NCBI RefSeq assembly: GCF_900115225.1
Contig: NZ_FOVR01000011.1
Location: 62,001-126,000, forward strand
DNA length: 64,000 bases
Direction of reading: 5' to 3'
Source of the DNA: Cohaesibacter marisflavi
Lineage (GTDB): Bacteria; Pseudomonadota; Alphaproteobacteria; Rhizobiales; Cohaesibacteraceae
Position numbers and translations under genes: made by a program. The notes under the pieces are model-generated. The model searched no databases and was not told where the DNA came from. It saw only the letters and a list, made by a program, of their open reading frames with translations. Position 1 is the first letter of the stretch, and each line of letters begins with the position of its first letter. Shown piece by piece: positions 49,370 to 50,182 of this stretch.

Positions 49370-49484
49370 TTGTCCTTCCCCAGAATGTCTTGCCTTCTTG
49401 ATATGGGGCAAAATATGCGGAAAGCAAGCTGCGTGCGACGGGAATGTCGGATGGCTTTGGGGATTGTCGAAGGAAGGCAGATAA

Positions 49485-49519
49485 CAAAAACCCTCCGGGG
49501 GAGGAGGTCCGGAGGGCTT
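49485..49519 (-). terminator. terminator hairpin of the DUF1127-sRNA unit (hairpin A)
   Basis: On the minus strand CCCTCCGG and CCGGAGGG pair perfectly around the loop ACCTCCTCCC, followed by TTTTTG. It is at once the third CCUCCUCCC hairpin and an intrinsic terminator. Confidence 0.85.
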
Positions 49520-49640
49520 TGTTAGGAGATTCAAAACTGGGAGGAGGTAGTTTTGAATCGATCAGGCTTTGGGAGGAGGAAAAGCCTGAATTCCTTGAAA
49601 CTCGTGGCTTTCGCTTGGACATTTCTGTCAGCGAAAGACT
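49485..49640 (-). ncRNA. tandem CCUCCUCCC-loop small RNA array (CcsR/cuckoo type)
   Basis: Just after the DUF1127 stop lies a hairpin (CTTTCGCT with AGCGAAAG, 49608-49637). Three consecutive hairpins follow with unrelated, perfect stems but the same loop. C: 9-bp stem at 49562-49589, loop UCCUCCUCCC. B: 11-bp stem at 49528-49559, loop ACCUCCUCCC. A: 8-bp stem at 49491-49516, loop ACCUCCUCCC, which is also the terminator. The loop is complementary to Shine-Dalgarno sequences. In Rhodobacter sphaeroides, four CcsR RNAs with this motif are cotranscribed with and cut from the transcript of a DUF1127 gene (CcaF1) under stress sigma factors; a wider 'cuckoo' family is described in alphaproteobacteria. 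Here the identification is by structure and context. Confidence 0.85.
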
Positions 49641-49642
49641 TT

Positions 49643-49798
49643 TTATTTTGCAGTAGCAGCTTCACGTGCGATTTCGGTGATGTCGCCGCGGGAAATTCCC
49701 AGTTCGCCCAGATCGCGATTGCTCAGGCGGGCAAGTTCATCAACCGTGTCACGGTAGTTGCGCCACTGGCGATAGTTTTCAACAACAGTATTGATCAT
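49643..49798 (-). CDS. DUF1127 mini-protein (CcaF1-like)
   Basis: A 51-residue protein not visible to usual length cut-offs: MINTVVENYRQWRNYR, then TVDELARLSNRDLGELG and ISRGDITEIAREAATAK. The arginine-rich helix followed by LxxLsxrdLxdlGIsRxdI is the DUF1127 signature. AAAGGA lies 9 bases before ATG 49798; an ATG three codons earlier (49807) sits too close to it. The R. sphaeroides homologue CcaF1 is reported to bind RNA and affect maturation of the small RNAs encoded with it. Here the gene leads directly into three CCUCCUCCC hairpins, so the same pairing is likely. Confidence 0.9.
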   Translation of the reverse strand: MINTVVENYRQWRNYRDTVDELARLSNRDLGELGISRGDITEIAREAATAK

Positions 49799-49897
49799 CG
49801 GTGTCATTCCTTTGTTGCTATGTGGCTGTTTATCTTCAACTGCGTTTCAGAAGCGTTTACTTGATTTTGTCTTTCGAACTCGTCATCGCTTCCTTGA

Positions 49898-49916
49898 CCA
49901 TGAATATAGTTCATGG
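49898..49916. promoter_or_regulatory. inverted repeat, candidate operator
   Basis: CCATGAA-TATAG-TTCATGG, a perfect 7-bp inverted repeat with five-base centre, about 100 bases before the DUF1127 start. On the minus strand its centre reads CTATAT, the alphaproteobacterial -10 consensus, so a bound protein could cover the promoter. Confidence 0.45.
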
Positions 49917-50182
49917 CTCTCGATTTTACATCGCACAAAATTGCATGGCTGTTTTGTTGGCATTGCATTTGTGGTGGTGATTATTTTTTAGGCAGACTAT
50001 TTTTGCATATCTACATGGGTTTTGTCTTTGAAAACAGATATTTAAAAATTTTTCCAATTGCTTGATAGACGCTAAATATCAAACTTTTTGGTTCAAGAAT
50101 TTCTTTCAGACTTGATGTCAAGCAGTGGATACGTGTTTTTACGCTGGGTTTTCTCCTTGTTTGGGGCGTCGTGCAGCCATGG

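Follow-up and report, generated by a model that had tools for sequence, protein, structure and literature searches.

A DUF1127-ar14 locus of Cohaesibacter marisflavi and its probable control by an LsrB/VtlR-type regulator

The window, a 64,000 nt stretch of the Cohaesibacter marisflavi genome, carries on its minus strand a short DUF1127 gene followed by a three-hairpin RNA of the ar14 family, preceded by a box that resembles the binding motif of the LysR-type regulators LsrB and VtlR. We consider it likely that this is a DUF1127-ar14 operon of CIN1 architecture, activated by an LsrB/VtlR-type protein and giving rise to a transcript that provides both a protein and an RNA blocking Shine-Dalgarno sequences. 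According to this proposal, a LysR-type activator orthologous to LsrB/VtlR would bind the box and turn on a single transcript, which encodes the 51-residue DUF1127 protein and ends with the ar14 RNA. The RNA would be cut from the 3' end of the mRNA or be active as part of it. Its exposed CCUCCUCCC loops would then pair, redundantly, with the Shine-Dalgarno regions of mRNAs, mainly those for transporters, and so prevent translation.

The locus and its RNA family

The features of the locus are compiled in Table 1. On the same strand, purH (AICAR formyltransferase/IMP cyclohydrolase) is located before and a DUF1232 gene after it. The 51-aa product matches the PF06568 profile with 44.8 bits (cut-off 23.3). 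Between AAAGGA and the ATG of this 51-codon frame there are 9 nt, and an alternative in-frame ATG at 49807 abuts AAAGGA. All three loops are 10 nt long, with U, A and A as first base in hairpins 1, 2 and 3, respectively, followed by CCUCCUCCC. The stem of hairpin 3 has a perfect core of 8 bp and extends to 12 bp if one G-U pair is counted. The 9-mer CCTCCTCCC occurs three times in the 64-kb window, each time within an ar14 hairpin; in 100 shuffled windows its mean count was 0.58 and three copies were reached once. The sequence-only reading had described a 51-codon DUF1127 gene with AAAGGA, then three hairpins with unrelated stems of 9, 11 and 8 bp, (A/U)CCUCCUCCC loops and a T run after the last one, and this description is exact in every one of these points.

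Table 1. Features of the DUF1127-ar14 locus (positions in the window)
Feature	Position	Strand	Remarks
LsrB/VtlR-like box CAAAACAGCCATGCA	49942-49956	-	13/15 to Brucella VtlR motif
CTATAT, probable -10	49904-49909	-	nearly constant distance from box
Shine-Dalgarno AAAGGA	49808-49813	-	DUF1127 gene; from sequence
DUF1127 gene	49643-49798 incl. stop (coding 49646-49798)	-	51 codons, PF06568
Spacer hairpin CTTTCGCT...AGCGAAAG	49608-49637	-	between DUF1127 stop and ar14
ar14 small RNA, three hairpins	49483-49594	-	RF02344, 87.7 bits
Hairpin 1	49562-49589	-	9 bp, loop UCCUCCUCCC
Hairpin 2	49528-49559	-	11 bp, loop ACCUCCUCCC
Hairpin 3, terminator-like	49487-49520	-	loop ACCUCCUCCC, then T run

By its match to the Rfam model (E 1.7e-14, cut-off 58.8 bits) the RNA is assigned to ar14. 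The CcsR1 model (RF02791), in contrast, reaches only 26 bits against a cut-off of 65.3, a score that rules out membership in CcsR1, and a match to RNAI (22.4 bits, cut-off 47) is taken as chance. Of the CcsR/cuckoo-type operon claimed at first, the order of a DUF1127 gene and CCUCCUCCC hairpins, as in CIN1/cuckoo loci, therefore stands, the CcsR1 assignment does not, and a covariance-model search, which had been recommended as a check, leads to ar14 instead. Judged by its sequence, the locus corresponds to the description of CIN1, a short DUF1127 gene with a CcsR-like (cuckoo) RNA; the link of DUF1127 to such RNAs is reported under this name (PMC10253847). For ar14, the reported structure comprises three hairpins whose CCUCCUCCC anti-Shine-Dalgarno loops are identical while their stems differ (PMC10746234), so that a "three-copy version" represents the standard form of the family rather than a special case. 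Loop motifs resembling these had been reported for SmelA075 and SmelA099 in 2011, in three and four hairpins (PMC3927594), and six ar14 copies with hypervariable stems are reported for S. meliloti (PMC7143759). Since ar14 has been published in nearly the terms of the sequence-only reading (PMC10746234, PMC3927594) and the DUF1127 link as CIN1, neither the hairpin and loop pattern nor this link is new.

Distribution and copy number

The source genome has three ar14 loci over the cut-off, in the window and at L001 and L003, each with a DUF1127 gene upstream whose product is 80% (L001) or 62% (L003) identical to the window protein. Three further matches (E up to 10) all fall below the cut-off. 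In a search of 41 genomes (the source and 40 others), run with stricter filters by which weak matches can be lost, ar14 matches at E <= 0.001 were found in 29 and matches over the cut-off in 21, among them all 18 Cohaesibacter genomes. These 18 contain 37 loci over the cut-off, which we grouped by eye into A (14 loci), B (5, including the window), C (9), D (5) and E (4). A DUF1127 gene ends 3-55 nt before ar14 in 35 out of the 37; the other two, L039 and L040, have no DUF1127 upstream of ar14. An ar14 match was obtained in 46 of 150 genomes sampled from the order, and 22 of these pass the cut-off. Outside the genus we considered the best locus of each of 18 genomes: a DUF1127 frame ends at most 212 nt upstream in 13, and no such frame is present in the stretch examined in five (L087, L091, L092, L094, L101). 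Two genomes (G152 and G087) hold three ar14 matches each within 480 nt. Copy number, which the sequence-only reading had proposed to compare in relatives, thus varies by tandem units.

The physical tie of the RNA to DUF1127 in 35 of 37 genus loci and the terminator-like hairpin 3 would suit a simpler explanation, namely that the hairpins mainly serve the 3' end and the stability of the DUF1127 mRNA, the motif working in cis or as a decoy without release of an RNA that acts in trans. We regard this as quite improbable, because L039 and L040 keep the RNA without the gene, the five outside loci lack DUF1127 in the stretch examined, and the loop sequence is kept beyond mere pairing.

Several further arrangements were seen during the survey. 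L003, which diverges most among the three paralogous loci in the source genome, and the other group C loci have lost the usual LG motif of DUF1127 (RECEVSISR in L003), and in group C loop 2 is shortened, for example to AUUCCUCCC. L028 (G026:C130), from another family of the order, has four tandem DUF1127 genes, with a pair of CCUCC-type hairpins behind each of three of them. Directly after an L,D-transpeptidase (YkuD) gene, an assignment with Pfam support for L006 only, L006 (~1490-1600) and L054 (~1000-1090) carry CCTCCTCCC-rich hairpins below the ar14 cut-off, the final one terminator-like. L055 and L058 (~1000-1075) lack DUF1127 and have a pair of CCTCCTCCC-type hairpins (GCCTGTG...CACAGGC; 12-bp stem); these follow what by eye appears to be a strong promoter, whose operator dyad is not the same in the two loci.

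Conservation of gene, stems and loops

The DUF1127 frame is a real gene under moderate constraint. Codons of the five group B loci, compared position by position, show 56 synonymous and 40 nonsynonymous pairwise differences; all 40 come from pairs with L038, and four of the five orthologues encode an identical protein. For 9 of the 14 group A loci the numbers are 267 and 138.

The ar14 structure is conserved in Cohaesibacter, with compensatory changes. In 29 distinct genus sequences, standard pairs occupy 98.4% of 926 pair cells, and 11 of the 32 pairs are changed on both sides, in 61 cells, where shuffles gave 22.6 such cells and the six slid controls 0-5. The number of further pair types stands out less (26 versus 23.7 in shuffles, with 35 of 500 shuffles equally high). 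Within a locus the three stems are unrelated, with a mean identity of 0.20 and a maximum of 0.43 over the 37 genus loci. TCCTCCC (UCCUCCC) is retained in all 111 loops of these loci and the complete CCTCCTCCC in 86, counts to be read with the fact that the loci were collected by a model that itself rewards the loop motif.

That loops are more conserved than stems is, as a plain column measure, unsupported: in the genus alignment variability is 0.138 for loops and 0.129 for stems, partly because loop 1 is out of register. Between orthologous loci 33 of 64 stem columns are invariant. As the stems are well kept between orthologues and the motif is kept in the loops, both appear to be constrained. 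The selection on the loop that had been deduced from differing stems thus holds for the motif-anchored count and the low identity among stems of one locus, but not as a contrast to freely changing stems, and the divergence of loops and stems in relatives, where an equal rate had been named as refuting, does not differ by columns.

In the spacer hairpin between gene and RNA the ar14 pattern is inverted: its stem (CTTTCGCT/AGCGAAAG) is invariant, whereas its loop varies. This hairpin is present in 19 of the 37 genus loci, in all of groups A and B and only those, and at three places of the source genome, two of which are the window locus and L001 (~1455-1486). It is possibly a processing or protein-binding site.

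Promoter region

From 49967 onwards, a conserved block reads TGCA-N7-CAAAACAGCCATGCA; the putative box is its core and the best 15-mer match to the published Brucella VtlR motif in the window. By chance about 0.4 sites of 13/15 are expected per 64-kb window (30 Markov simulations), and for the 700 nt upstream p is ~0.003; the same test, tried at eight genus loci, gave p 0.003-0.05 in seven and 0.61 for L039. As an independent test of the box, this match is modest. The published LsrB/VtlR consensus GCAT-N3-TG-N3-T fits 35 of the 37 genus loci, a count that describes conservation and is no independent test, since the search expressions were shaped on the genus sequences themselves. At the window box the fit is on the strand opposite to transcription. 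The consensus is missed only at the two loci that lack DUF1127, L039 and L040, where ar14 immediately follows a decayed copy of the box in an NfeR1-like stand-alone layout.

The upstream block before DUF1127 is common to groups A-E. The distance from the box to a TATAT-like -10 is 28-34 nt in all 37 loci and mostly 33 nt, and CTATAT in the window would place the start of transcription at about 49896-49898. NfeR1 is reported to have the same -10 form (PMC10746234). A clear -35 is not apparent: by eye there is no CTTAGAC/CTTGAC-like hexamer 17 nt before CTATAT, and a sigma-70 scan gave no minus-strand match. The NfeR1 form TGCA-N6-GCAT, reported for NfeR1/AbcR1 promoters and not defining for the RNA family, is absent from the window, where the box region reads TGCA-N6-ACAA.

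This would be a CcsR-type operon proper if RpoH drove a stress transcript from which RNase E and the DUF1127 protein matured the RNAs, as for ccaF1-CcsR1-4. Gene order and loop motif are the same as those reported for R. sphaeroides (PMC10253847), and groups A and B show, by eye, a CTTG-N17-CCAT-like (RpoH-like) pair. Groups C-E keep the LsrB/VtlR-type box but not this pair, and together with the low CcsR1 score this makes a CcsR-type operon unlikely. On this inspection by eye an RpoH-type promoter finds no support, the element kept in 35 of 37 genus loci being the LsrB/VtlR-type box.

Outside the genus, a match of at least 12/15 lies within 700 nt upstream in only 5 of the 18 loci. In two of these five (L093, L097) it is located between DUF1127 and ar14, which points to a separate promoter of the RNA there. 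Across the source genome the box pattern has 27 matches with up to two mismatches, compared to one for the control; those with zero mismatches are the three ar14 loci from which the pattern was drawn. At five of the remaining box-pattern sites (L113, L119, L126, L129 and L134) there is no DUF1127 frame among the open reading frames listed.

The putative regulator

A candidate activator is encoded in the source genome. The LysR protein directly after trxB matches 9HH1 with 410 bits, the next chain reaching 108; 9HH1 is LsrB of A. tumefaciens, and lsrB is reported to be in an operon with trxB in Rhizobiales (PMC11975290). By sequence and position, this protein is the LsrB orthologue. LsrB is reported to activate NfeR1 (PMC10746234), and Brucella VtlR to activate both DUF1127 genes and AbcR2 (PMC12595884). 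The conserved box in 35 of 37 loci and the LsrB orthologue beside trxB suggest that in Cohaesibacter both of these known outputs, the DUF1127 protein as well as an anti-Shine-Dalgarno sRNA, are probably carried by one transcript.

Directly after lsrB in the source genome, L138 (~1350-1580) holds a candidate AbcR-like sRNA with TGCA-N6-GCAT upstream and CCTCCTCCC inside, although its suhB score of 23.2 bits is below the cut-off of 41. The top suhB match of this genome is L135, with 60 bits; it was set aside for L138 because the latter adjoins lsrB.

Possible targets

An action on ribosome-binding sites, as first suggested, is right in kind and is what the CIN1/cuckoo architecture leads one to expect. 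For NfeR1 the three loops are reported to act redundantly on target mRNAs, with a bias to transporters (PMC10746234); within ar14, expression of an RNA of about 110-125 nt and repression of targets via its loops have been published only for this member. In Cohaesibacter the evidence for targets is thin. The published NfeR1 target ntrB was located by position after dusB, its copy in the source genome having PAS, HisKA and HATPase domains. Neither GGGAGGAGG nor any 8-mer of it was found before the ntrB start in the 18 genus genomes, and loop complementarity is only 3-5 nt in all 18, for which reason ntrB was rejected as a conserved target. Genome-wide there are five perfect 9-mer start sites, versus two for the reversed pattern. 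Four of the five open only frames of 4-47 codons; the one long gene encodes a transporter permease, in line with the reported transporter bias of NfeR1 (PMC10746234).

The loops might also mimic the 16S anti-Shine-Dalgarno sequence and serve as a global brake on translation, with broad action on ribosome-binding sites and no chosen targets. Loops 2 and 3 contain ACCUCCU, which we take to be common to the general 16S tail, and duplex energies of loop and tail are similar among the best 12 of 64 proxy start regions of the window. The tail as we assume it is exact in only 1 of the 18 genus genomes, however, and absent from the source assembly. Moreover, the targets reported as tested are particular mRNAs (PMC10746234), so that a global brake appears very improbable indeed.

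Implications of the proposed joint operon

What the proposed LsrB/VtlR-activated operon adds is on the regulatory side: the LsrB/VtlR-type box, its nearly fixed distance to the -10, and lsrB kept beside trxB. If the proposal is true, a single regulator acts through both protein and RNA, and it becomes directly testable whether the DUF1127 protein acts on the adjacent RNA or merely shares its switch. By analogy, the protein may aid RNA maturation like CcaF1 of R. sphaeroides, a DUF1127 protein reported as an RNA-binding maturation factor (PMC10253847), or may act separately, as small DUF1127 proteins of Agrobacterium reportedly do by protein-protein contacts (PMC12501420). For one S. meliloti DUF1127 gene a uORF attenuator is described (PMC12218461).

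More tentatively, the DUF1127-ar14 operon may be the original LsrB/VtlR output, one transcript for a small arginine-rich protein and an RNA, from which stand-alone ar14/NfeR1 (as in L039 and L040) and RNA-less VtlR-activated DUF1127 genes would be derived by losing one half. We hold this to be possible rather than probable, as it is weakened by the box between DUF1127 and RNA in two outside loci. If true, it would join the CcsR/CIN1, NfeR1-LsrB and VtlR-DUF1127 lines, for which we found no joining publication in the accessible texts searched.

Comparison with known systems

With the ar14 founder NfeR1/Smr14C2 of S. meliloti the Cohaesibacter RNA shares three hairpins with CCUCCUCCC loops and differing stems, a length of ~112-123 nt, the CTATAT -10 and, as predicted here, LsrB-type control. 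It differs in that it would constitute the 3' portion of a transcription unit shared with DUF1127, that the window box departs in detail from TGCA-N6-GCAT, and that ntrB is no evident target. CIN1/CcaF1-CcsR1-4 of Rhodobacter sphaeroides has the same order of DUF1127 and same-strand CCUCCUCCC hairpins. In contrast to it, the window fails the CcsR1 model, its three hairpins score as one ar14 unit, and no RpoH element is common to all groups.

The VtlR-activated DUF1127 genes of Brucella resemble the locus by a small DUF1127 gene behind a VtlR box, and Agrobacterium atu1667 is called an orthologue; the available text of the two sources mentions no ar14 RNA behind these genes (PMC12595884, PMC7486931). 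The AbcR sRNAs (ar15/suhB), finally, have another structure and belong to another family, but share with the window RNA anti-Shine-Dalgarno seeds and, as predicted here, control by LsrB, and the distance of the Cohaesibacter box is close to that of the site reported for AbcR1 of S. meliloti (-61 to -49).
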